From positions 64,480 through 98,527 of the forward strand of contig NZ_AWNK01000010.1 in the NCBI RefSeq assembly GCF_000469585.1: DNA of 34,048 nt, given 5' to 3'. The position numbers and the translations under genes were made by a program. The DNA is from Chrysiogenes arsenatis DSM 11915 (GTDB taxonomy: Bacteria; Chrysiogenota; Chrysiogenetes; Chrysiogenales; Chrysiogenaceae). Below are positions 8,858-22,691 of the stretch, in pieces (position 1 is the first letter of the stretch; the number at the start of each line of letters is the position of its first letter). The notes under the pieces are model-generated. The model was not told the DNA's origin, searched no databases, and was given only the letters and a program-made list of their open reading frames with translations.

Positions 8858-10492
8858 TTATTTCCAGAAACCTATTCGGCCTACTTGCATGGCAAGTATC
8901 CGATTTGTCCAAATCCCTCCGGTTAACACGGGAGTCAGCGTTTGCGAAGCGTCGGCAAGCTGGCTGGCAACAGCATGGGCGGTAAAGTCTGCAAAGCTTT
9001 CAATGCAACCAAAAGCAATAGCCGCTGGCGAAGCGCCCGCCATGCGATAGCTGATGACGGAACGCAGCAGCCAACGGGGATCGAACAGTGCCTCGAATGA
9101 TGTGCCCTGCGGCGCACCGTACTGCAAGCGCAGCCCTTTGGCAAAGGGTTGCTGGAGGGCGATGGATTCAAGTTCGGCGGCATCGTCATCGAGCGTATTT
9201 TGGGCATTTCCTTGTCCGAGAATGCGGCTGGCAACGCCCCAGACGTGCCAGACACTGCCAAGGTGCAGCGGGGTGTGATCGTGGCTCAGATGTTGCCAAA
9301 TTTCGGGATAAGTAGCGCGAAAAGTTTCTAAAAGACGCGCGGCACCTTCGTCGAGCGTGGCAATGCTCTGCACCAGTCCGGCGACAGTTTGCGTTTGGTC
9401 GATGGCGCACGGCACGGCTGTTTGCTGCCCATCATGGCCGATTTGGTAGAGTGCTAACGCTTCACTCCCGAGTGGAGCGTGACAGACGATCGTTCCGGCC
9501 ACTTCGTTGTGCGGCAGCGCATGGAGGTCGAGCGACCGCTGGCCGTCGCGAATACGTAGTGTGCTGTCGGTGCAGGCTATGCGTGGCCGCTGTTCCGGCT
9601 GAAAGAGTTCGCCGCTGAAACTCAGCCGATAGCTGGCATTTTCTGGATCATCGCATGGCCATGTCACCAGTGGCAGCGATTCAGCATCGGCTAGCGGTTG
9701 TGCTATCAAAAAAAGCATTAGGTCGTCGGGTAAGGCGCACCATATACCGCCCCAATCGCTGTGTGTGCGTTGGCGGAGTGCTTCGCGGACGGGGACAAAG
9801 AGGGCAGGTTTTTCGATGGTAGCGCAGAGTTTTTCTTCTTCTGGGGTGGCGTGTGTCCAACGCGATATCCCACTGAGATCGGCAAAAATAAGGGTTGCGC
9901 CGCGACGATTCCGAGCACTTTGGGCGTCAATCATTGCGACTTCCTGCCAGCCACTGAATGTGTGCACCGCGACTGATTCTCCCTGACGCAAGGTTTCCAC
10001 GCATTGTTGAAAAAGGAGGGGGAATTCTTCGCTCGCATGCGCCACGGTGCCGACGCCGTTTGGTTCATGCCATTCCAGAGTCCGTGGTTGTGGCGCAAGG
10101 CTCTTTGTGTACCCACAACAGGGGCAGAAATGAAACGGATTGGTATATGCGTGGCTGTGCGGATCGTTTACATTCGCAACACAATGGGCGCACGGTGGAA
10201 TATTGAGTGGTATGTTTGGTAGGTTCCACTGTTCGTTTTCAGCGGGCCACTCGGTTGCGATAGTGACGTTCGCTTCACTCAAAAAAAGCGATGTCGGGAT
10301 TTCGAGCGCCAAGACTTCGCCAAATTGACCGAGCGCTTCGGCGGTGCCACGTGCAAAGAGCAGTGTTTGTGTCTGGCGACGGACAAGCTGTGTTTCCAGA
10401 GTGGGTGCGGCGCTCATGCAGCGTTGCAAAAAGCGTTCAATAATTCCGGTATCCGCACAATTTTCAAAGGTAAAGAGGAGTGTATGGTTCAT
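8858..10492 (-). CDS. HypF-like / HydE-type hydrogenase maturation protein
   Basis: A 544-aa divergent relative of HypF. It has one zinc finger (C101/C104, C123/C126, spacing C-x2-C-x18-C-x2-C, as in HypF), a weakly recognisable YrdC-like middle, and a C-terminal Kae1-like part ending with TGGIWTNRIL, matching the CGGVFQNR motif of HypF. The acylphosphatase motif is absent, the second finger is absent, and the HHHAH metal motif is missing. The C-terminus stops soon after the TGGIWTNR motif. Its start overlaps the hydD stop by 4 nt. The hydD - hypF-like order recalls hydDE in Wolinella and Helicobacter, where HydE is HypF-related (from memory). A non-catalytic maturation role for a particular hydrogenase is inferred. 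Confidence 0.75.
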   Translation of the reverse strand: MNHTLLFTFENCADTGIIERFLQRCMSAAPTLETQLVRRQTQTLLFARGTAEALGQFGEVLALEIPTSLFLSEANVTIATEWPAENEQWNLPNIPLNIPPCAHCVANVNDPHSHAYTNPFHFCPCCGYTKSLAPQPRTLEWHEPNGVGTVAHASEEFPLLFQQCVETLRQGESVAVHTFSGWQEVAMIDAQSARNRRGATLIFADLSGISRWTHATPEEEKLCATIEKPALFVPVREALRQRTHSDWGGIWCALPDDLMLFLIAQPLADAESLPLVTWPCDDPENASYRLSFSGELFQPEQRPRIACTDSTLRIRDGQRSLDLHALPHNEVAGTIVCHAPLGSEALALYQIGHDGQQTAVPCAIDQTQTVAGLVQSIATLDEGAARLLETFRATYPEIWQHLSHDHTPLHLGSVWHVWGVASRILGQGNAQNTLDDDAAELESIALQQPFAKGLRLQYGAPQGTSFEALFDPRWLLRSVISYRMAGASPAAIAFGCIESFADFTAHAVASQLADASQTLTPVLTGGIWTNRILAMQVGRIGFWK

Positions 10493-11037
10493 CGTGATGT
10501 CTCCAGCGAAGGTTGGCAGCTTTTTTGTGCCAATTCGGTTAGTGTTTTTTCGGCAATGCGTGTGGTTTGGACGCCTAAACCGTGCAAATGTGCCAGAAGT
10601 TTTTTCTCCATAACGGCTGCGCCGTGCAATACGGCAGGTGTCATAACAAAAGAGGTTTCGGCAATCACTTCAGGGACAACTCCCAAAATGAATGTGGTTG
10701 GCCGGTCGCCCGCCATATCCATCATGGTGAGGGTGTGCAGCATTTCCACTTCGTGGGCACTCCCCTGCCAGCGGATGGCGTCGGGGATAACGGCATAATC
10801 AAAAAAATAGACCTCGCCAACGGCACTGTTCGCCACGTCTACGGTGTCAAGAATGACAACATGATCGTACGCGGCGATGGTGGGAATCAAGTGGTGCGCC
10901 AGTGTGCCACCATCAAGAATATCTACTTGATGTGGTCCATCGTAGCGATAGTTGGTAATCATGAGCGTAGCCAAATGTACGCCCACCCCTTCGTCACCAA
11001 AGAGGACATTGCCGATGCCGAGCAGGAGAATTTTCAT
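10489..11037 (-). CDS. hydD: Hydrogenase maturation protease, HydD/HyaD family
   Basis: A 182-aa endopeptidase of the HyaD/HybD/HydD family, which clips the C-terminus of the [NiFe]-hydrogenase large subunit after nickel insertion. It has GIGNVLFGDEGVG (8-19), with E16 as nickel-sensing ligand, the ILDTVD segment (62-67) with the second ligand Asp, and H95 in HEVEML as the third. Length is typical. It overlaps the HypF-like gene by 4 nt (coupled translation) and is transcribed away from folC. No large- or small-subunit genes are in the window. Confidence 0.92.
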   Translation of the reverse strand: MKILLLGIGNVLFGDEGVGVHLATLMITNYRYDGPHQVDILDGGTLAHHLIPTIAAYDHVVILDTVDVANSAVGEVYFFDYAVIPDAIRWQGSAHEVEMLHTLTMMDMAGDRPTTFILGVVPEVIAETSFVMTPAVLHGAAVMEKKLLAHLHGLGVQTTRIAEKTLTELAQKSCQPSLETSR

Positions 11038-14576: not shown

Positions 14577-14613
14577 AAAAAATCCCCCGCGTGGCACGCG
14601 GGGGATTTTTTTT
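14577..14613. terminator. Bidirectional terminator between lptD and the cupredoxin cluster
   Basis: The stem TCCCCCGCG / CGCGGGGGA with a 5-nt loop is flanked by A-runs on the left and eight Ts on the right. It ends both lptD (plus) and the CuA-like gene (minus), whose stop codon immediately abuts it. Confidence 0.92.
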
Positions 14614-14997
14614 CTATTCAACAACTAAAGTTCCACGCAAGCGCGTATGTAGCGGACTACAGATAACGCTGCACACAAAGCCGAATTCCCCTTTGCGTTT
14701 CGGGGTAAACTCAATGGTTTTCATTTTACCGGGCAGGATTTTGCCCGCGTCAACACCCAGTTCGCCGATAATAAAGCCGTGGGTAACATCTTCGCTGATG
14801 AGGCGCAAGCGCACAGGTTCGCCCTGTTTGACAACGACTCGGTTTGGCGAAAAACCGCCATCTTCCGCCGCACGGATGATAATGTCGATGGTGTTTGGTT
14901 CCTTGCCAATGTTTTTTGCCAGCGTGAAGCCGATCGGCAGGCCGATAACCATGGCAATCACGACCAGTGCAGCAAGTATTTCTTTGAATGATCTCAT
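14614..14997 (-). CDS. Membrane-anchored CuA-like cupredoxin
   Basis: A 127-aa protein with an uncleaved-looking N-terminal membrane anchor (about 8-27) and one cupredoxin domain. Ligand candidates are H73 (DVTHG) and C109-x3-C113-x3-H117, the CuA arrangement, but the final Met ligand position is Leu120. A CuA centre with an altered axial ligand, or another copper site, is possible. It starts 20 nt after the CuA-NapH-like gene on the same strand and resembles that protein's N-terminal domain (both share EDVTHG and GTLVVE), so it is probably a duplicated module serving the same complex. It probably acts in the periplasm, tethered to the inner membrane. Confidence 0.85.
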   Translation of the reverse strand: MRSFKEILAALVVIAMVIGLPIGFTLAKNIGKEPNTIDIIIRAAEDGGFSPNRVVVKQGEPVRLRLISEDVTHGFIIGELGVDAGKILPGKMKTIEFTPKRKGEFGFVCSVICSPLHTRLRGTLVVE

Positions 14998-15017
14998 TGT
15001 CCCCTCGCTTTCTGCAC

Positions 15018-16985
15018 TTACATGAACAGCCAGATAAACAGGCTGGTGACCAGCGTCAAGAAGGCCGTTACCGGCAATAGAATCGCCACCTTCTGCCCAC
15101 CGCTGACGTCATATTTTGCCAGTAGTTTCGCTCCGATGGTATTGGAGAAAAGCAGTCCGACAAAGAGGATAGCCGCCTGAATGTACGGATAGAATGATGT
15201 GCCAACCGGCTTCCATTCGATTCCCTTGGTGCCGAACAGATCCCAGCCCCAGCCGAAGGGGTCGGAAATAACGTGCAAAATGTAAATGCCGTTAATAAAG
15301 AGGAACGATACGCTGAATGCCATCCAGCAGGCCAGTCCCAGCGGTACCAGAACATATGTCATGGTGACAAACAGGTCGCCAAAAGGGATTGGATCTTTAT
15401 TTTCCTCTATTGGCGCAGCTTCCGCTTCTTTTTCCTTACTGCCAAAGATTAGCCCTTTGGTGATGATAGCGAGCTGCACTACCGGATAGAAAATATTCCC
15501 CAGCGATGAGAGTTTGCGATCGGCTAACCCTTTACCGATCCAGACGGCAATGGCAAATAGGATCGGCACCACAATCAGATTCAGCGCCAGGAAACCACCC
15601 GCGTACCAAGCAAATCCCGGCATGCTCAGGTTTGCCCATTGCTTGACAGAACCCCACGAACTTTGGAAGATAACGGAATAGGCGAGTGCACACGAAAGCA
15701 TGATGAAGGCTTTGTAGGCTTCGTCCATGCTTTTCCCTTTGCTTACCAACAAGTCGCTACCGAACTTCTGCCAAACGAGGCGGATGTTATTTTTTGAGCA
15801 GGTCTTAAAGCATTCGGTGCACAGTCCGCAGTAGGCATTACGTTCGATATTCCACGGTGCTTCCATCCACGGACAGCCATACCCTTTTTCGCTACCGACA
15901 ATGCACTCTTTTTCGCGGTGCCCTTTACACACGGCTTTGTCACCCACGCGCACACCCAGTGGCGCAAGCAGTGAATAGAGGCCGATGAATCCCCCGACCG
16001 GGCAAAGGTAGCGGCAGAAAATCCGTCTGCCGTAAATGAGCGAAAAGACGATGGCCAATACGATAAACAGTGACAGTACTACTCCCGTCACGACAGGACG
16101 GGTGAGGATGATACCACTTAAAAGCGCAACTAATAAGAACGACCAGTTTTGCAACCAGATATTCTTCAGCCGCTTTGGCCATTTGGCGTTCGTCAGTGGT
16201 TGCTCGCTCCCCTTATCTACAAATGCCTTATGGTCAATCCACTCACCGGGAGCAGGCAGTGGACACATGGTACACCACAGGCGTCCGCCAAGCGGCAGAA
16301 GGATCAGAATCAGCGCCGCCCACCAGACAATCCAGACAAAAATCAACGAGAAGTTGGCGTTGCCGACATGAGTTCCGGCAAACGCGGCATAGAGAATAAT
16401 GGCAAAGAAAAATACGTTGACGACCATGAGGATATACTGCAAAGAGCGCTGCTTGAGCAAAGCCAGCAGCCACGGAAAGCGCGACGTCAGGTCAATTGGA
16501 GGCTCGGCCTGTGCCGCCGTGACCTGCGCAAAATAGGTTTTACGCTTCAGGAAAATATAGAGCAGGCTGCCAAGTCCGATCGCAATCGTGACCAGCAACG
16601 CGGTCGGAGCAACAAACCCCGGCTCTACCACGAGCGTGCCGACCATGAAGGGGTGCATTGGGCCACAAACCACGTTGCAGCGGAAGGTAAAATTACCGAC
16701 CTTATCGGCAACGAATTCAACCGTGCCTATCTGTCGATCTTTTGGCGAATCCTGCACGCTTACATCGTATTCGTCAATATAGAGGCCGTGAGTCACATCT
16801 TCGGCAATCAGTTTTATTTGTACTCGATCGCCTTCGCGAACTTTGACAACACTGGGTTTATATTCAAATTGACTGGCATGAATCTCGATGACGACCAGAT
16901 CGGCCGTATCTTGCGCCGAAGCTGGAAGAGCAATGATTCCTAAAAATAAAATGAGGCTAAAAAAAGAGGCGAACAGTCGCTTCAT
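15018..16985 (-). CDS. CuA-domain / NapH-NosR-like Fe-S membrane protein fusion
   Basis: A 655-aa protein. Residues 1-24 are a signal peptide (ASA-Q). Residues 28-122 are a cupredoxin domain with H66 and C103-x3-C107-x3-H111-x2-M114, a complete CuA motif. After a membrane segment (about 125-146) comes a multi-helix domain with CTMCP (238-242) and CRYLCP (324-329) motifs as in NapH, NosR and YccM. It is followed by ferredoxin-type cysteines C353, C361, C371 and C386/C389/C392/C396, and more membrane helices to the end. NapH/NosR relatives pass electrons from quinol across the membrane. NosR carries an FMN domain where this protein has CuA. GGAAGG precedes the ATG. The peroxidase gene lies upstream with a terminator in between. 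Confidence 0.88.
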   Translation of the reverse strand: MKRLFASFFSLILFLGIIALPASAQDTADLVVIEIHASQFEYKPSVVKVREGDRVQIKLIAEDVTHGLYIDEYDVSVQDSPKDRQIGTVEFVADKVGNFTFRCNVVCGPMHPFMVGTLVVEPGFVAPTALLVTIAIGLGSLLYIFLKRKTYFAQVTAAQAEPPIDLTSRFPWLLALLKQRSLQYILMVVNVFFFAIILYAAFAGTHVGNANFSLIFVWIVWWAALILILLPLGGRLWCTMCPLPAPGEWIDHKAFVDKGSEQPLTNAKWPKRLKNIWLQNWSFLLVALLSGIILTRPVVTGVVLSLFIVLAIVFSLIYGRRIFCRYLCPVGGFIGLYSLLAPLGVRVGDKAVCKGHREKECIVGSEKGYGCPWMEAPWNIERNAYCGLCTECFKTCSKNNIRLVWQKFGSDLLVSKGKSMDEAYKAFIMLSCALAYSVIFQSSWGSVKQWANLSMPGFAWYAGGFLALNLIVVPILFAIAVWIGKGLADRKLSSLGNIFYPVVQLAIITKGLIFGSKEKEAEAAPIEENKDPIPFGDLFVTMTYVLVPLGLACWMAFSVSFLFINGIYILHVISDPFGWGWDLFGTKGIEWKPVGTSFYPYIQAAILFVGLLFSNTIGAKLLAKYDVSGGQKVAILLPVTAFLTLVTSLFIWLFM

Positions 16986-17020
16986 CTTGGTACCACCTTC
17001 CGTATAAAACCCAACTCTGA

Positions 17021-17053
17021 AAAAAAGTCGCCCCCAGTACGGGAGCGACTTTC
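17021..17053 (-). terminator. Terminator between peroxidase gene and CuA-NapH-like gene
   Basis: On the minus strand a 12-bp stem (AAAGTCGCTCCC with GGGGGCGACTTT, one G-T pair) is followed by Ts. It sits 22 nt past the peroxidase stop and 36 nt before the next gene, so it probably lowers expression of the downstream pair. Confidence 0.88.
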
Positions 17054-17074
17054 ATCAGTAAACCAGAGCCACAA

Positions 17075-18085
17075 TTATGGCAATTCAGGCTTTTCAACTA
17101 TTGGCAGCGTACCACCAAGGGACTTGAGGAATGCTACGAGTTCCCCTTTTTCTTTGTCGCTCAGGTTCAGCGGACGTACCAGTGGGCTGGTGTTCGGATG
17201 ACCGTCGCCACCTTTATTTTTGAACTCAACCACATCTTCTATCGTTCTCAATGAACCGGCATGCATGTATGGCGCGGTGTGTGTGATGCCACGAAGAGCA
17301 GCGGTTTTGATTTTCCCGAGGTCTTCTGGGTTGCCAGTGAAGCCAGCGCGGCCTTTGTCTTCATCTTTGATGCCGATATTGTGGAAGTTATTGTCGGTCA
17401 GACTTGAACCATTATGGCAGCTAATGCAGCTTGCTTTGCCAGCAAAGAGTTGCATGCCACGCTTTTCCACGTCGTTCAGCGCTTTATCGTCCCCTTTTAG
17501 GTAGCGATCAAAGGCGGTATCGGTAATTACGATGGTGCGCTCGAAAGAAGCGATAGCTTTACCAATGTTCTCGGGGTTGATACTGTTTTCACCGAATACT
17601 GTATTAAAACGCTCAACATAGGCTGGAACAGCTTTCAGGCTATCAACCAGAACGTCGAGTTTCTGGTTCATTTCGCCTGGATCTTGAATCGGGCCAAGAG
17701 CTTGCTGCTCAAGGGTTTTCATCCGGCCATCCCAGAATTGCAGGCTGTAGTAGCCAGAGTTAATGATGGTAGGTGAATTGCGCGCCCCTCTGTGTCCTTT
17801 AAAGCCAAGGAACGTTCTGCGAGCATCGCTCCACCCTTTGGTTGGTTCGTGACAGCTGGCGCAGCTTAATGTTCCGTCGCCGGAAAGGCGGGTGTCGAAG
17901 TAAAGCAGTTTTCCGAGTTCAATTTTTTCAGGAGTTTGGGGGTTATCTGCTGGAATTGGCATTTCACCGAGTGGTTGGAATACTTTTTTGGGGTCAAGAT
18001 TCTGATTCGCGGCAACTGATGTTGCTCCCATGATCAATGAAAGACCGACGATGCAGGAAATGATGCTTTTCTTCTTGAAGTTCAT
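17075..18085 (-). CDS. Di-haem cytochrome c peroxidase (CcpA/MauG family)
   Basis: A 336-aa periplasmic protein with signal peptide (to about SVAA, 26) and two haem c sites, CASCH (75-79) and CISCH (220-224). It has the peroxidase signatures GARNSPT (100-106), FWDGR, QALGPIQDPGEM and the APYMH segment with M274 as the probable axial ligand of the high-potential haem. Such enzymes reduce hydrogen peroxide with electrons from small cytochromes or cupredoxins; MauG-type relatives oxidise proteins instead. It lies 27 nt after the gene for a type 1 copper lipoprotein, a likely electron donor. Peroxidase activity is the default reading; MauG-like function cannot be excluded. Confidence 0.93.
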   Translation of the reverse strand: MNFKKKSIISCIVGLSLIMGATSVAANQNLDPKKVFQPLGEMPIPADNPQTPEKIELGKLLYFDTRLSGDGTLSCASCHEPTKGWSDARRTFLGFKGHRGARNSPTIINSGYYSLQFWDGRMKTLEQQALGPIQDPGEMNQKLDVLVDSLKAVPAYVERFNTVFGENSINPENIGKAIASFERTIVITDTAFDRYLKGDDKALNDVEKRGMQLFAGKASCISCHNGSSLTDNNFHNIGIKDEDKGRAGFTGNPEDLGKIKTAALRGITHTAPYMHAGSLRTIEDVVEFKNKGGDGHPNTSPLVRPLNLSDKEKGELVAFLKSLGGTLPIVEKPELP

Positions 18086-18111
18086 ACTCTACCTCTCCCT
18101 AAAAAAATTTG

Positions 18112-18552
18112 TTACTCAACAATAAACGTCATTTTAATCCATGGATGGAGCGTGCAAAGCGGCTCATGCACTCCGGGCTCACCCGGAGCCGTCCACAGTC
18201 GGCGTACGGTCTGCCCGCCGTATACCAGAATCTCAGGTAAGTCGGCTGTCGAGGAAAGGAAGTTGTGTTCGCCATCTTCGTCCGTGTTTTTGATAACAAA
18301 CAAAATCTTTTCACCCGCCTTAATGTTGACCGTGTTCGGTAAAATCGTTTCCGGCGTAAAGTCGAGCTCAATCACGCGAGCATCTTCAGCACCCGCTGGA
18401 ATCGGCTCGTCCTTTGTGTACTCCACCGCAGCAGTCGGACTGCTGGCAGCGGCGGTGCTGGCAGTAGCGCTACTTTTCTCCTTGTCACTCCCACAAGCTG
18501 TAATCGTGATCAAAAGCGCAAGCAGAACCGAAAACAAAAACCAATTACGCAT
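18112..18552 (-). CDS. Type 1 copper (cupredoxin) lipoprotein A
   Basis: A 146-aa lipoprotein: lipobox ITAC with C20, a flexible S/T/A-rich linker (25-45), then a cupredoxin domain with ligands H96, C133, H136 and M141 in the plastocyanin-like spacing C-x2-H-x4-M. Chosen start is the ATG at 18552, preceded by GGGAGGTG; the in-frame ATG six codons earlier contains that site. It is paralogous to the protein at 22236-22691 (shared PAGAEDAR, EHNFLS, LHPWIKMTF or IHPWIKMTF). Directly upstream of the peroxidase gene, it probably supplies its electrons from a membrane-bound position. Tether orientation (inner or outer membrane) is not certain. Confidence 0.9.
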   Translation of the reverse strand: MRNWFLFSVLLALLITITACGSDKEKSSATASTAAASSPTAAVEYTKDEPIPAGAEDARVIELDFTPETILPNTVNIKAGEKILFVIKNTDEDGEHNFLSSTADLPEILVYGGQTVRRLWTAPGEPGVHEPLCTLHPWIKMTFIVE

Positions 18553-18848
18553 CTCTTCACCTCCCTTCACTCTTTTCGATAATAGTATCTGTTACGATTT
18601 CTATCAGAGGCATAAGGAGATATCAAGTGATTTTTAGTGCGAGTGAGAATTATTTTTATTTAAATTGAATGGCTAATTGGCAATGAATGTTGGAATTGAT
18701 TTTAGATGGAATAAGTTATGCTTTGTAGAGGGTAATGTGTGTAATAGTGAATATAGAATAGGTTTATAAAATGGAACGTATCTTCAGGAGAAGCAAACAG
18801 CGTTTTGATGTGCGCAACACGCAAAGCGGTGTCAATGAGCACTGCAAA
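18553..18848. other. Intergenic region, probable promoter of peroxidase block
   Basis: About 295 bp between the cupredoxin A start and the ABC ATPase stop, AT-rich over 18600-18780. A promoter for the minus-strand peroxidase block is expected here, but I see no convincing consensus boxes, terminator or gene. A 30-codon plus-strand frame at 18771-18863 lacks a ribosome binding site. Confidence 0.4.
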
Positions 18849-19523
18849 TTAACTTTCCTGTAGCAAGCCTTGATCCATCCGATAGCGGCGGGTAGCCCAC
18901 TCTGCCCAGCAATGGTGGTGGGTCACCATAACAACAGCTTTGCCGCGCTCCACTTCGGAACGGAGCAATTGCATGACTTTTTCTGCCCACGAGGGGTCGA
19001 GGTCATTCGTCGGTTCATCTGCAATCACAAGCGGAACATCCTGCGCGAGCGCCCGTGCAATGGCAACACGGCGCCTTTGGCCGACGCTAAGTGCATGCGG
19101 TAGAAAATGAAGCCGTTCTGACAAACCAACTGCTTCGAGAAGCTGTTGCGCTTGGGTGCGCTGCAGGGCAGAAGGGCGTTTTCCATAACGCAGTGTATGG
19201 GTAAAAAGAACGTTTTCAAGTACGGTCAGAGCTGGAAGCAGGTTGGCCTCCTGAAAGATAAAGCCGACATGGGAGGCTCGCAATCGTGTTAGTTCCCGTT
19301 CGCCAAGGGGAGAAAGTGCCTGTTTGGCCAAGGCTACTTCTCCCGATGTAGCGCGCAGTAACCCCCCCATCACGTAGAGAAGTGTGCTTTTTCCGGTTCC
19401 AGAAGGACCTTCTATCGCAATAAAATCACCAGCTTGAATAGTCAGATTGATACCAGCAACTGGGCGCACCTGTTCGTCGCCACGGTACTCTTTCACGACT
19501 TCTGTCAACTGGCATATACTCAT
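18849..19523 (-). CDS. ABC transporter ATPase, LolD/MacB type
   Basis: A 224-aa ATPase with Walker A GPSGTGKS (39-46), Q-loop Q91, signature LSVGQ (145-149), Walker B LVIADEP (165-171) and a His switch in VTHHH. The signature's second Gly of LSGGQ is replaced by Val, uncommon but tolerated in some systems. It pairs with the FtsX-type permease 24 nt upstream. ATPases of this class drive lipoprotein release, macrolide or peptide export or mechanical signalling; the substrate here is unknown. It is the last gene of the unit beginning with cupredoxin lipoprotein B. Confidence 0.93.
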   Translation of the reverse strand: MSICQLTEVVKEYRGDEQVRPVAGINLTIQAGDFIAIEGPSGTGKSTLLYVMGGLLRATSGEVALAKQALSPLGERELTRLRASHVGFIFQEANLLPALTVLENVLFTHTLRYGKRPSALQRTQAQQLLEAVGLSERLHFLPHALSVGQRRRVAIARALAQDVPLVIADEPTNDLDPSWAEKVMQLLRSEVERGKAVVMVTHHHCWAEWATRRYRMDQGLLQES

Positions 19524-19547
19524 ACGTTCTCCTCTGTCCGGTCGTTC

Positions 19548-20747
19548 TTAATCGAGATCACCACGTGAAATGGCTTCTTGTGGATCGAGCCGTGATGCCC
19601 TCCATGCAGGATACAGCGCGCTCAATGCACCAATTCCTACCGCCATGACTAATCCTGCACCACTACTGCCAAGTACTGTCATGGCATCAACATGCCATGG
19701 TGGAATCACCAACGCCCCTTTGAGCCATTCCAGTGCATAGAGTGCACCTGCTGTGCCAAGGAGCGACCCTAACAACCAACCGGTGATGATGGTGCATGTC
19801 ACTTCGCCAGCAATCAGCAATAATACATCGCTGCGTTGGCCTCCGAGCGCGCGGATGACACCGATTTCCCGTTTCCGTTCACGCGCAAGAGCAAGGAAGC
19901 GCCCCAGTAAAGCAATTCCGGTGCTCAACGCAATTCCGCCCCAAATCCACACGAAGACAATGGCAAACGAATGCATCTGTTGCCGCATGCCACGGATAAT
20001 TTCCCCCGCAGCGACTGCCTGAACCGGCAACCCAGAATTATTAATTTCGCGCGCCACAAGCAGTGGTAGCGAACCCGGTTCAGTTTGTAGCATGACGACT
20101 GAAACCAGCGCTTCGGGCGGATATTCTTTCCAAAGTCCTTGCAAATAGGGGCTTTCTTTCGCTAAACGGCGGGCGACATCAATTGGAAGAAATACCGTAT
20201 CGTCCATGCCGGTTCCGGTGAGTTCTAACTTTCCTGCCACCGTAAAAATGCCATCAAGAATGATGGCGCGATTGCCAAAGAACGGTTTTACCACGCCGCC
20301 GATTAAGATTTGGTCATCGGCCAGCTTTTGGATATCCTGATTTTTCAGCCATGGATGAACGATAAAGTCGCTCGCCGGATCGTAGCCAATCAAGCGCTTG
20401 GCTTCGCGCAGATCACAGCAACTTTCGTCCAACGATTGCGTGAAAAACTGCGGTGTTACTCGTTTGACATGTGGTAATTGCGCAATGTGCTCAACCAAAT
20501 CCCGGTGCATATACACATTCACTGGCTCAGCGGTGAAAATCGTCTGTTGTGGCGTTACGCCCATTCCCTGCGGAAACACAATGACATCAGCCCCAAGCCG
20601 TTCCGACGCGAGGCTTACGCTTTGCTGTAAGAGCGAAAATACAAGGTGCGCCACAACAAACATAGCAATGGCAAAGGTCACAACCAGCACCGTGATCAGC
20701 GACTGTTGTGGGCGACGGGTAAAGTTGCGCCAGACGAGCAGGAACAT
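19548..20747 (-). CDS. FtsX/MacB-type ABC permease
   Basis: A 399-aa permease with one N-terminal membrane segment (about 16-40), a large periplasmic region (about 42-262) and three C-terminal segments (about 265-385), the FtsX/MacB layout. The loop ARERKREIGVIRALGG between the second and third segments is the conserved coupling region. A Cys pair (ESCCDL) lies in the periplasmic part. The start at 20747 is 5 nt after the DUF4418 stop with AGGAG upstream; a longer frame would run into that gene. Related permeases occur with P19/DUF2318 iron-uptake genes in Campylobacter, a possible functional parallel. Confidence 0.9.
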   Translation of the reverse strand: MFLLVWRNFTRRPQQSLITVLVVTFAIAMFVVAHLVFSLLQQSVSLASERLGADVIVFPQGMGVTPQQTIFTAEPVNVYMHRDLVEHIAQLPHVKRVTPQFFTQSLDESCCDLREAKRLIGYDPASDFIVHPWLKNQDIQKLADDQILIGGVVKPFFGNRAIILDGIFTVAGKLELTGTGMDDTVFLPIDVARRLAKESPYLQGLWKEYPPEALVSVVMLQTEPGSLPLLVAREINNSGLPVQAVAAGEIIRGMRQQMHSFAIVFVWIWGGIALSTGIALLGRFLALARERKREIGVIRALGGQRSDVLLLIAGEVTCTIITGWLLGSLLGTAGALYALEWLKGALVIPPWHVDAMTVLGSSGAGLVMAVGIGALSALYPAWRASRLDPQEAISRGDLD

Positions 20748-20752
20748 GTAGA

Positions 20753-21178
20753 TTACGCTCCTGCCAGAATTTTCCGGAAACGCCACCAGAGCAGCAAGCC
20801 AACAACTATAGCGAGCACTCCTTCCGCAATCAGCCATATCTCCGTATCGCGACACGGCATTGTTTTGCTCATGCACACACCAATGACCCATGACTGGGGA
20901 GCGACAAGAATACACACACCGATTGCTGCTACAACCAGTCCAAGTACCGCTGCGAACTGGCGCCGTAAAACCAGCAAAAGCCCAACAGTCGTGAGCAGCC
21001 CGCCCAGCAGTATTTCTGCCTTCGCGCTGTAAGCGCAGCGCATGGGACGGAGTGCGCCACTTTTCATTTCAACAAAATCAGTACAGACGGGAACCAACAA
21101 TTCTGGTGTTAGGATAACAACGATACCGAGGATCAGCGGTATCCAGCAAAGCACATTCCATACAGGCGATTCTTTCAT
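20753..21178 (-). CDS. DUF4418 membrane protein
   Basis: A 141-aa protein with four predicted membrane helices (about 9-25, 54-70, 75-95, 116-132). It has conserved-looking segments MRCAYSAKAE (46-55) with C48, and IGVCMSKTMPCRDTE with two Cys, a pattern I associate with DUF4418, a family of unknown function. Cysteine and methionine residues near the membrane surface could bind a metal. Its start overlaps the stop of the beta-propeller gene by 4 nt, and the permease follows after 5 nt, so the product probably works with the transporter. Confidence 0.8.
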   Translation of the reverse strand: MKESPVWNVLCWIPLILGIVVILTPELLVPVCTDFVEMKSGALRPMRCAYSAKAEILLGGLLTTVGLLLVLRRQFAAVLGLVVAAIGVCILVAPQSWVIGVCMSKTMPCRDTEIWLIAEGVLAIVVGLLLWWRFRKILAGA

Positions 21179-22233
21179 TCCCTGCTCCCACTTTGTTTTA
21201 TATAATACACAGCACCCACTGGGCCGCCAACAACAGGAATACTCTGTACTTCTTTGCCTGCCGCAATATCAAAAACCTGCACTAAATCTGAATCCATATT
21301 GGTTACGGCAACCCGATTTTCGTTGGAGAGAATCGGTATTACGGCAAAAGGGTATTTGCCAGTCGTTAGACGGCTGATCTCTGGATATCCCTCTGTTAAT
21401 GCGTAGCTGACGAGGCGTTCTGAATCATGCAACACCACATGAAGGGCGTTGTTTGAAATGCTCATCGAAGCTGGCATATCGCCAGTGTGAATCTTTCCGA
21501 TATTCTTGCCCTGCACCAAATCATGCACCAAAATTTCGGTGGCATCATCCTGAGAGCCATGACCGCCGCTATACAGTATCGTCCCGTTGGGATGCAAAGC
21601 GAGTCCTGCTGACTTCGGTACGGCTTCATAGGTTTCGATAACAATGTGCGCATCCAAATCGACCAGCGTCAACGTTGCGGCGTCGTGATTCAGCACGGCT
21701 AAGCGATTATTACTCAAGATCTCCACATTATAGGGCGCTTTGCCTGTCTCGATCTGCGCTATTTCTTGCCGAGCAACTACATCCAGAATGGAAAAAGCAT
21801 CCCCTTTGGTATTGCTGACATAGGCGTGCGCTTTCGATTCATCAACCGTGACCATCCCCGGGACGCGACCGACTTTGGCCGTGCCCAGTACCGCAAACGA
21901 ATCGAGATCAAGGAACCATACTTCGTGCCCCAAAGCGCATACCACTAACAGCTGGTTGCGTGGGCGATCAACCGCCAACCCATAGGGCTTGCTGCCAACG
22001 CGCTGTTCTGAAACAACAGTACCGCGAGCCAGATCAATCGCTACGACTTTGTCTTCGTTCATCGCAGTAACATACAGCCGCTCAACGGCGGTAATGGGCA
22101 CCACATTGACAGGAGTAAGTGCAGTCAAACCCGCATCGCTACGCACAACTTCTTTGCGTTCACACCCGCTCAAAACCAACAGCAGAAGAAGTGCCACAAG
22201 TGCCCATGAGCGGTTTACAAAAAATACGTGCAT
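21175..22233 (-). CDS. YVTN-type beta-propeller lipoprotein
   Basis: A 352-aa lipoprotein (lipobox LSGC, C24). From about residue 45 it is built of repeats of the form ...V(V/A)xIDLxxG/S-xxVxxxxVGxxPYGLAVD..., the YVTN/YncE or cytochrome-d1-like propeller pattern; about seven blades fit the length. No CxxCH is present, so it does not carry c-type haem. It follows the cupredoxin B gene by 2 nt and overlaps the DUF4418 gene. Such propellers often act as periplasmic scaffolds or metal/haem-handling partners (NirF-like). Its partner here is probably the cupredoxin or the transporter. Confidence 0.88.
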   Translation of the reverse strand: MHVFFVNRSWALVALLLLLVLSGCERKEVVRSDAGLTALTPVNVVPITAVERLYVTAMNEDKVVAIDLARGTVVSEQRVGSKPYGLAVDRPRNQLLVVCALGHEVWFLDLDSFAVLGTAKVGRVPGMVTVDESKAHAYVSNTKGDAFSILDVVARQEIAQIETGKAPYNVEILSNNRLAVLNHDAATLTLVDLDAHIVIETYEAVPKSAGLALHPNGTILYSGGHGSQDDATEILVHDLVQGKNIGKIHTGDMPASMSISNNALHVVLHDSERLVSYALTEGYPEISRLTTGKYPFAVIPILSNENRVAVTNMDSDLVQVFDIAAGKEVQSIPVVGGPVGAVYYIKQSGSRE

Positions 22234-22235
22234 GC

Positions 22236-22691
22236 TTATTCAACAACAAAGGTCATTTTAATCCATGGATGAATCGTGCACATAGCACCATAGGTGCCGG
22301 GGGTGGTTGGAGCCGTCCAGACACGCTTGACGGTTGCTTCCGGATTTACGAGAATTTCTGGTAGCTCTGCTTCGGCAGAAAGGAAGTTATGCTCCCCTTC
22401 GTCATCCGTATTTGTGATAACAAAGAGGATTTTTTCGCCAGCTTTCATAGTGATTTCGTTCGGCTCAATTGTTTCGGGTGTAAATGTTAAAATGATTTCA
22501 CGAGCGTCTTCGGCACCAGCAGGAGCAGGCTCTTCCTTCACAGTTTCTTGAGTTACAGGAGCTGCCGTTGTTACGGCTGCAGCAGCGGGAGTCGCACTGC
22601 TAGTGCTTTGCGTCTTTTTTGCGTCATTGCCGCAAGCCGTTAAGAGAAGTGCTACCGAGGCCGCCACGAGAAAGGGGATCATTTTTTTCAT
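22236..22691 (-). CDS. Type 1 copper (cupredoxin) lipoprotein B
   Basis: A 151-aa lipoprotein: lipobox LTAC (C20), a low-complexity A/T/P linker (25-60), and a cupredoxin domain with H101, C138, H141, M146. It is about the same length as, and clearly homologous to, lipoprotein A. AAGGAG precedes the ATG. It is the first gene of the propeller-DUF4418-ABC unit. Two copies at the heads of two adjacent units suggest that each unit carries its own copper electron carrier or copper-binding subunit. Confidence 0.9.
   Translation of the reverse strand: MKKMIPFLVAASVALLLTACGNDAKKTQSTSSATPAAAAVTTAAPVTQETVKEEPAPAGAEDAREIILTFTPETIEPNEITMKAGEKILFVITNTDDEGEHNFLSAEAELPEILVNPEATVKRVWTAPTTPGTYGAMCTIHPWIKMTFVVE

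Follow-up and report, generated by a model that had tools for sequence, protein, structure and literature searches.

What could a gene cluster of copper, haem and iron-sulfur proteins, accompanied by an ATP-binding cassette (ABC) transporter, do in the periplasm of an anaerobe? The question is raised by a stretch of 34,048 nucleotides from Chrysiogenes arsenatis DSM 11915 (contig NZ_AWNK01000010.1, positions 64,480 to 98,527; the whole stretch is called the window here), where nine genes, all on the minus strand, are arranged in two close-packed blocks (22691-18849 and 18570-14614). Published work describes the organism as strictly anaerobic, using arsenate, nitrate or nitrite as respiratory acceptors and forming ammonium as the nitrogen product (PMC3828317). 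Gene content, kept order, conserved metal-ligand residues and a repeated association across phyla are what we observe, and as to function the chances are evenly balanced that the cluster forms a copper-wired peroxidase system of the periplasm, made up of two functional halves and serving respiration or detoxification. Quinol as the donor, each electron-transfer step and its direction, peroxide as the substrate and copper as the cargo of the ABC transporter are what we infer.

In the proposed scheme, a membrane protein in which a CuA domain is fused to a NapH-like part (CuA-NapH) would oxidise menaquinol, and its [4Fe-4S] clusters would relay the electrons to the protein's periplasmic CuA domain. 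From there they would move to a small, membrane-anchored CuA protein, on to a type-1 cupredoxin lipoprotein and finally to a di-haem peroxidase of the MauG/cytochrome c peroxidase (CCP) superfamily, which would reduce H2O2 or a related oxidant. The redox half would then act as NosR does for the nitrous oxide reductase NosZ, with CuA replacing the flavin domain. The remaining half, consisting of DUF4418, an FtsX-type permease, its ABC ATPase and a beta-propeller lipoprotein, may constitute an ATP-driven machine that loads, assembles or repairs periplasmic copper centres in a NosDFY-like manner, with putative Cu(I)- or thiol-handling sites in DUF4418 (two loops with C and MxC) and at a Cys-Cys pair of the permease. 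NosR is thought to donate electrons to NosZ, and NosDFY is required for CuZ maturation (PMC7660919). Overall, the transporter of the cluster probably builds or repairs copper sites.

A wider proposal is more tentative, and we place it somewhat short of an even chance: that CuA-NapH and the small CuA protein represent a widespread flavin-free quinol dehydrogenase class whose periplasmic end enzymes can be exchanged (NosZ, type II molybdoenzymes, cytochromes, MauG-type peroxidase), and that DUF4418-FtsX(CC)-ABC, in many cases joined by a propeller lipoprotein, matures such copper-wired systems as a so far undescribed, ATP-driven Cu(I)/thiol machine and is thereby a functional parallel to NosDFY.

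Two blocks that stay together

The original prediction, made from the letters of the sequence alone, had described nine co-directional genes, and profile matches return the families it named for all nine products. The features are as follows.

22236-22691, minus strand: Cup1, type-1 copper cupredoxin lipoprotein (lipobox TAC, CTIHPWIKM, Cupredoxin_1)
21175-22233, minus strand: YVTN-type seven-bladed beta-propeller lipoprotein (lipobox SGC)
20753-21178, minus strand: DUF4418 small membrane protein (C32, M46xC48, C102 and M107xC109 near-invariant in 29 relatives)
19548-20747, minus strand: FtsX/MacB_PCD-type ABC permease (SCC motif in the MacB-like, presumed periplasmic domain)
18849-19523, minus strand: ABC ATPase, LolD/MacB-like (profile matches)
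18571-18848, minus strand: spacer of 278 bp dividing the ABC and redox blocks, where a second transcription unit probably starts
18112-18570, minus strand: Cup2, type-1 copper cupredoxin lipoprotein (CTLHPWIKM, Cupredoxin_1)
17075-18085, minus strand: di-haem MauG/CCP superfamily protein (two CxxCH; Lys at the sixth-ligand position of the second haem)
15018-16985, minus strand: CuA domain fused to a NapH-like polytopic [4Fe-4S] membrane protein, 655 residues
14614-14997, minus strand: small membrane-anchored CuA protein (HGF...CSVICSPLHTRL; Leu replaces the axial Met)
14577-14611, no strand: strong bidirectional intrinsic-terminator-like hairpin with a 16-bp stem, between lptD (plus strand) and the cluster (minus strand)

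Block A (22691 to 18849) thus runs from Cup1 through the propeller, DUF4418 and FtsX genes to the ABC ATPase, and block B (18570 to 14614) from Cup2 through the peroxidase-like protein and CuA-NapH to the small CuA protein. Both cupredoxins combine a lipobox with the type-1 motif CxxHxxxxM.

All nine genes recur in identical order in Desulfurispirillum indicum, at 49-80% identity. The C. arsenatis cluster is flanked by folC, lptD, murF and futalosine hydrolase, which are housekeeping genes, and that of D. indicum by glucosaminidase-like and glycogen phosphorylase-like genes upstream and by other genes downstream (named flanks in both cases by reading translations). Retention of the order at this divergence and between other flanks argues that the grouping is not due to chance. 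A third genome of the same family (G001) gave no match to CuA-NapH, DUF4418 or the peroxidase, and plasmid searches with CuA-NapH and Cup1 returned nothing useful.

A second arrangement is found in another phylum, at locus L260 of genome G575 (L numbers denote the loci compared), which came up when the phylum of a Bacillota bin was searched with PF14387. Here the nine-gene set, minus Cup1, is split into two divergent blocks, and the point of divergence is the break marked in the window by the 278-bp gap. The redox half (small CuA, CuA-NapH, peroxidase and one cupredoxin) points in one direction and is 64-68% identical to C. arsenatis, while the ABC half (propeller, DUF4418, FtsX and ABC) points in the other at 32-38%. 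Opposite orientation and unequal divergence, combined with retained adjacency, argue for a functional link, and imply that the halves were united more than once, or were rearranged while staying adjacent. In a tree of the NapH part, the Chrysiogenes, Desulfurispirillum and L260 proteins group together with full support, and their clade falls with sequences from Chloroflexota. That the two blocks belong together is thus supported by three genera, two phyla and two arrangements, as well as by a Planctomycete operon with another end enzyme (L212, below). This had been the least certain point of the original prediction and is now strengthened.

L260, L212 and most other comparison loci stem from draft or metagenome-assembled genomes, where single contigs may be contaminated; since independent assemblies agree, contamination is unlikely to explain the pattern of recurrence. 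Open reading frames of the neighbour loci were called mechanically, and small genes may there be overlooked or mis-started.

A CuA-terminated membrane protein with exchangeable partners

CuA-NapH of C. arsenatis retains the full set of five CuA ligands, including the axial M114. Across 14 fused relatives from several phyla, H66, C103, C107 and H111 are invariant together with 11 Cys of the membrane part, and a Bacteroidota-type group carries Glu in place of the CuA Met. The structure model displays a CuA fold, also recovered by Foldseek, followed by some nine to ten long helices; a fold search of the PDB detected the CuA domain only, and none of the 50 matches listed is a solved structure related to the membrane part.

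The likeness to NosR (with NapH) lies in the polytopic architecture, the NapH-type [4Fe-4S] clusters, the periplasmic redox domain and a NosZ neighbour in L180. In contrast to NosR, the periplasmic domain is CuA and not a flavin mononucleotide (FMN) domain, the window adds a separate second CuA protein and other end enzymes, and a true NosR coexists with CuA-NapH in L011. Against the NapH/MauN model TIGR02163, CuA-NapH scored 30 bits over region 293-402 only (cut-off 213). Neither the NosR model NF046105, whose members combine FMN with a C-terminal [4Fe-4S] part at scores >1000, nor the FMN domain matched; the true NosR relative in L011 scores 474. With scores this far below both models, the protein is classed as NosR/NapH-like, not as a member of either family.

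CuA-NapH patterns retrieved 155 related loci from the genome collection, of which the best 80 were kept. Among these 80, the protein is distributed over Chloroflexota, Rokubacteria, Planctomycetota, Bacteroidota, archaea and others, and a second CuA protein follows directly in nearly all non-Bacteroidota loci. In C. arsenatis, D. indicum and L260 this small protein keeps the ligands H, C, C and H. Other partners vary: CuA-cytochrome c fusions, preceded in many cases by a PCYCGC protein, in Chloroflexota; a type II dimethyl sulfoxide (DMSO)-reductase-family alpha/beta/chaperone set including an EB_dh-CuA fusion in L028, L212 and L215; a propeller in the Rokubacteria-type loci L017, L031 and L044; and NosZ, NosD and NosF in L180, where CuA-NapH occupies the position expected of NosR. 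This exchange of partner enzymes is our main reason for reading CuA-NapH as a general quinol-to-periplasm conduit, and in L180 it is a candidate flavin-free electron supply for NosZ.

Several details of these loci deserve mention in their own right. CuA-NapH is directly upstream of NosZ in L180 (925-6867, minus strand), with no NosR seen in the stretch read. In the Planctomycete L212 (8154-13999, minus strand), a fusion of EB_dh (haem gamma-subunit-like) and CuA is followed immediately by NapH and small CuA. The CuA-NapH operon of L024 includes a rubrerythrin/ferritin-like gene (10399-10941) that weakly resembles the MbfA iron exporter model, and similar genes are present in L025, L033, L037 and L038. 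The L045-L080 group (Bacteroidota-type, CuA Met replaced by Glu) has conserved downstream genes read as FG-GAP/VCBS-like and TPR proteins. Finally, L084, L085 and L136, in the same GTDB phylum, encode an 895-residue distant relative (about 30% identity in the NapH part), with cytochrome c biogenesis-like and FtrD-like genes nearby.

A transporter module beside copper enzymes

The DUF4418 protein scores 76.1 bits against PF14387 (curated cut-off 27). Four Cys and two Met are near-invariant in the 29 sequences, placed in two C...MxC segments, and a Cys-Cys in the MacB-like domain is present in 25 of 26 FtsX permeases paired with DUF4418 and in none of the five unpaired ones checked. These residues suggest Cu(I) or thiol chemistry. 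The trio DUF4418-FtsX(CC)-ABC was found in the window and in most DUF4418 loci read.

DUF4418 is sparse, occurring in 5/193, 2/42, 8/294 and 14/399 genomes of four sets, the 42 being CuA-NapH carriers. About 33 places were read, and nine adjoin CuA or NosZ genes: the window, D. indicum, L260, L212, L213 (Planctomycete) and the nosZ clusters L185, L250, L251 and L255. By a rough, uncomputed estimate that assumes a handful of such genes per genome, fewer than one of the 33 would be expected by chance. In L212, a single strand carries DMSO-reductase-family alpha, beta and chaperone genes, EB_dh-CuA, NapH, small CuA, DUF4418, FtsX, ABC and a propeller lipoprotein, which is the logic of the window with a different end enzyme. 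That DUF4418-FtsX-ABC turns up repeatedly in nosZ and CuA operons and carries conserved Cys/Met motifs makes a role in copper-centre maturation a directly testable hypothesis.

The closest functional parallel of this half is NosDFY, likewise an ABC transporter with a periplasmic repeat-fold protein in the operon of a CuA enzyme, and the likeness extends to the occurrence of DUF4418-FtsX-ABC itself inside nosZ clusters. The window differs from it by an FtsX/MacB-type CC permease instead of NosY, a DUF4418 partner, a beta-propeller instead of the NosD beta-helix, and the absence of nosZ.

The earlier suggestion that the ABC part serves the periplasmic components is matched by its association with copper enzymes elsewhere (CuA and NosZ loci). 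Two outcomes had been named as fatal to the original prediction, which withstands them only in part. Rare co-occurrence of the sub-blocks was one: most genomes with CuA-NapH lack DUF4418, so that the halves as a rule do not occur together, yet each of the two genomes that carry both has at least one DUF4418 copy beside CuA-NapH or nosZ. The other was that the cluster is a fragment of a nosZ operon: no full-length nosZ occurs in the genome.

As separate observations, a CuA protein and an 851-residue multihaem cytochrome precede DUF4418-FtsX-ABC-propeller in L213 (3-7087, plus strand), giving another end enzyme for the module; FtsX-ABC-DUF4418 adjoins NosZ clusters with genes read as Rieske/cytochrome b type in L250, L251 and L255; and DUF4418 lies near genes reading as nitrogenase-type component proteins in L259, L261 and L263. 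Many DUF4418 copies are without obvious partner genes.

An unusual di-haem protein

The putative end enzyme of the window carries the CCP_MauG domain (PF03150, 195 bits) and two haem motifs, C75ASCH and C220ISCH, and its active-site stretch with Gln and Glu is kept. Bacterial di-haem CCPs (Nitrosomonas CCP 1iqc, Geobacter MacA) and MauG/MbnH share with it both CxxCH haems and the EMN/EQA segment of the active site. The sixth-ligand position of the high-potential haem differs: it is Met in the phylum's other, Deferribacterota-type CCPs and Tyr in MauG-type proteins, whereas both Chrysiogenetes have Lys and L260 has Phe. A haem-Lys as the defining feature was dropped on account of L260, and only 'not Met, not Tyr' stands. 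Judged by sequence, the protein is neither a canonical CCP nor a MauG; peroxide reduction is its likeliest activity on family grounds, at moderate confidence, with a copper protein as the predicted likely donor, a further difference from CCPs. H2O2 is a respiratory oxidant for E. coli Ccp (PMC8115020).

Independently of the window, the arsenite oxidase (azurin) genes of an Azonexus plasmid (L178, 4872-10420) are immediately preceded by a pair of CCP-family genes, of which the second is 42% identical to the window peroxidase.

Points against the scheme and competing explanations

A number of findings weigh against a copper-wired peroxidase system with a dedicated copper-site machine. The peroxidase is without the Met sixth ligand of CCPs (Lys, Lys and Phe in C. 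arsenatis, D. indicum and L260), the distal His of Nitrosomonas europaea CCP is Phe in all three, and the inter-haem Trp is Leu in D. indicum; as an end enzyme it was found in three genomes only among those examined. The small CuA protein lacks the axial Met and thereby the full CuA ligand set, Leu being present in all three. DUF4418-FtsX-ABC is mostly without CuA genes (2/42) and is also found in FTR1/P19 or FtrD-like iron loci (L229, L230, L146), and the propeller type varies by lineage, being YVTN-type in the window and PQQ_2/ACSF4-type in L212. Of the quinol-to-peroxidase chain first proposed, the CuA-NapH link is supported by its five retained CuA ligands and 11 invariant Cys; peroxide as the substrate is less certain, given the missing canonical sixth ligand and distal His.

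The peroxidase residues leave room for an unlikely alternative, namely that the MauG-like protein is a maturation enzyme oxidatively modifying a partner, as MauG and MbnH do, with the copper proteins as its electron acceptors or donors and the end reaction of CuA-NapH elsewhere. Absence of the CCP axial Met would fit a maturase, and the protein is closer to the MauG/MbnH models (TIGR03791, 260 bits; TIGR04039, 227 bits) than to classical CCPs found across the wider phylum, to which it is only 37-43% identical. However, both scores are under the curated cut-offs (443.85 and 362.85), the MauG Tyr is missing from the sixth-ligand position and the inter-haem Trp from D. indicum, no MauA- or MbnP-like substrate gene is among the nine, and the best PDB matches are bacterial CCPs (1e-57; MauG about 1e-20).

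The iron loci relate to a second, also rather unlikely, explanation, in which the ABC half is an iron or copper acquisition transporter of the FetMP-FetABCDEF type, functionally apart from the redox half. Their presence, together with the scarcity beside CuA, means that the trio may handle iron, thiols or something more general. The Campylobacter FetMP-FetABCDEF and P19-FTR1 systems are the closest rival parallel, with FtsX-type permeases, an ABC ATPase and periplasmic metal proteins, and with DUF4418 in P19-FTR1-type loci; FetBCD, an ABC system of a P19/FTR1-type locus whose own substrate is unclear, supports FetMP iron uptake there (PMC10783030). On the other hand, FTR1 (PF03239) had no match in the C. 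arsenatis genome, where control searches did match, the cluster is without a P19 or FtrD-like gene, the ABC half is tied to CuA or NosZ genes in several lineages, and FtsX permeases of iron-type loci that are not paired with DUF4418 have no CC, in contrast to that of the window. FTR1/P19-type iron uptake was accordingly rejected for the window.

It is improbable that electron flow is reversed, with CuA-NapH delivering electrons from the oxidation of a periplasmic donor to the quinone pool. Some type II DMSO-reductase-family enzymes do oxidise their substrate (ethylbenzene dehydrogenase relatives, as beside CuA-NapH in L212), but the partner NosZ in L180 is a reductase, and menaquinone reduction would be uphill from CuA and type-1 copper, the potentials of which are usually far above that of menaquinone.

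Scarcely credible, and rejected for the window, is the view that the propeller and the separate CuA proteins form a split NosZ, as part of a nitrous oxide reductase system that is degenerate or fragmentary. In its favour, the CuA domains match the C-termini of NosZ, the propeller weakly matches lactonase-type NosZ (L-NosZ), and in Rokubacteria relatives CuA-NapH and small CuA are accompanied by a propeller with seven His. Against it, neither the C. arsenatis nor the D. indicum genome has a full-length nosZ (TIGR04246, NF052460/L-NosZ; C-terminal CuA matches only), which bears out the earlier remark that none is nearby, the window propeller is without His at the Rokubacteria loop positions, neither nosD nor nosL is among the nine genes, and C. 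arsenatis turns nitrate and nitrite into ammonium (PMC3828317).

The propeller lipoprotein

The propeller is modelled confidently (mean predicted local distance difference test score 83.7), with the archaeal YVTN propeller 1l0q as the nearest structure and BtuG, hydrazine synthase beta and AztD as other matches. At the loop positions where Rokubacteria propellers carry His, the Chrysiogenes and Desulfurispirillum proteins have Y/G/Y/A/A/F/V; seven other His are conserved in D. indicum. In the absence of blade-loop His, no CuZ-like site is proposed. Clade III L-NosZ resembles the window in having a beta-propeller and CuA domains in one gene cluster, but in the window these are unfused, the propeller is far under the model cut-off, and there is no His crown.

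The Rokubacteria-type operon of propeller, CuA-NapH and small CuA was seen in L017 (8956-9900), L031 (8983-9933) and L044 (1-918), on the plus strand. Its propellers have six His in blade-connecting loops, which with SHQIF gives seven invariant His, in a repeat context like that of the NosZ CuZ ligands (NSHGMAMAPDG vs SPHGINVTPDG), with no fused CuA domain. They score 103-109 bits against the L-NosZ model (cut-off 700), and the operon may possibly encode a split enzyme similar to nitrous oxide reductase.

Novelty and implications

The nine-gene set has no description in the literature searched (most subscription journals and preprints lay outside the search), in line with the original prediction that knew of no such system. 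DUF4418-FtsX-ABC was found there without an assigned function, in one passing mention. The individual domains are known; a flavin-free CuA-NapH conduit, its exchangeable partners and the copper association of DUF4418-FtsX-ABC were not found described. Known quinol-to-periplasm conduits are mainly bc1, alternative complex III (ACIII), NapGH, NrfH and the flavin protein NosR. A CuA-terminated NapH protein, present in bacteria and archaea with swappable end enzymes, would if confirmed be a further general solution, and may explain electron supply to NosZ in organisms without NosR. Strict anaerobes such as Chrysiogenes would then have a copper-wired peroxide defence or peroxide respiration.

Transcription units and gene starts

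Within block A, Cup1 and the propeller gene are separated by 2 bp, propeller and DUF4418 overlap by 4 bp, and DUF4418-FtsX and FtsX-ABC are about 5 bp and 24 bp apart; in block B, the spacings are 26 bp (Cup2-peroxidase), 89 bp (peroxidase-CuA-NapH) and 20 bp (CuA-NapH-small CuA). A scan of the 278-bp gap yielded one weak promoter-like match (18607-18579), with a promoter total not above chance. At the other end, lptD is convergent with block B, and the terminator-like hairpin (14577-14611) lies in between. The FtsX reading frame was listed from 20915, and alignment with D. indicum places the true start near 20747. Cup2 is listed from a GTG, and an internal ATG is suggested by D. indicum and the alignment.

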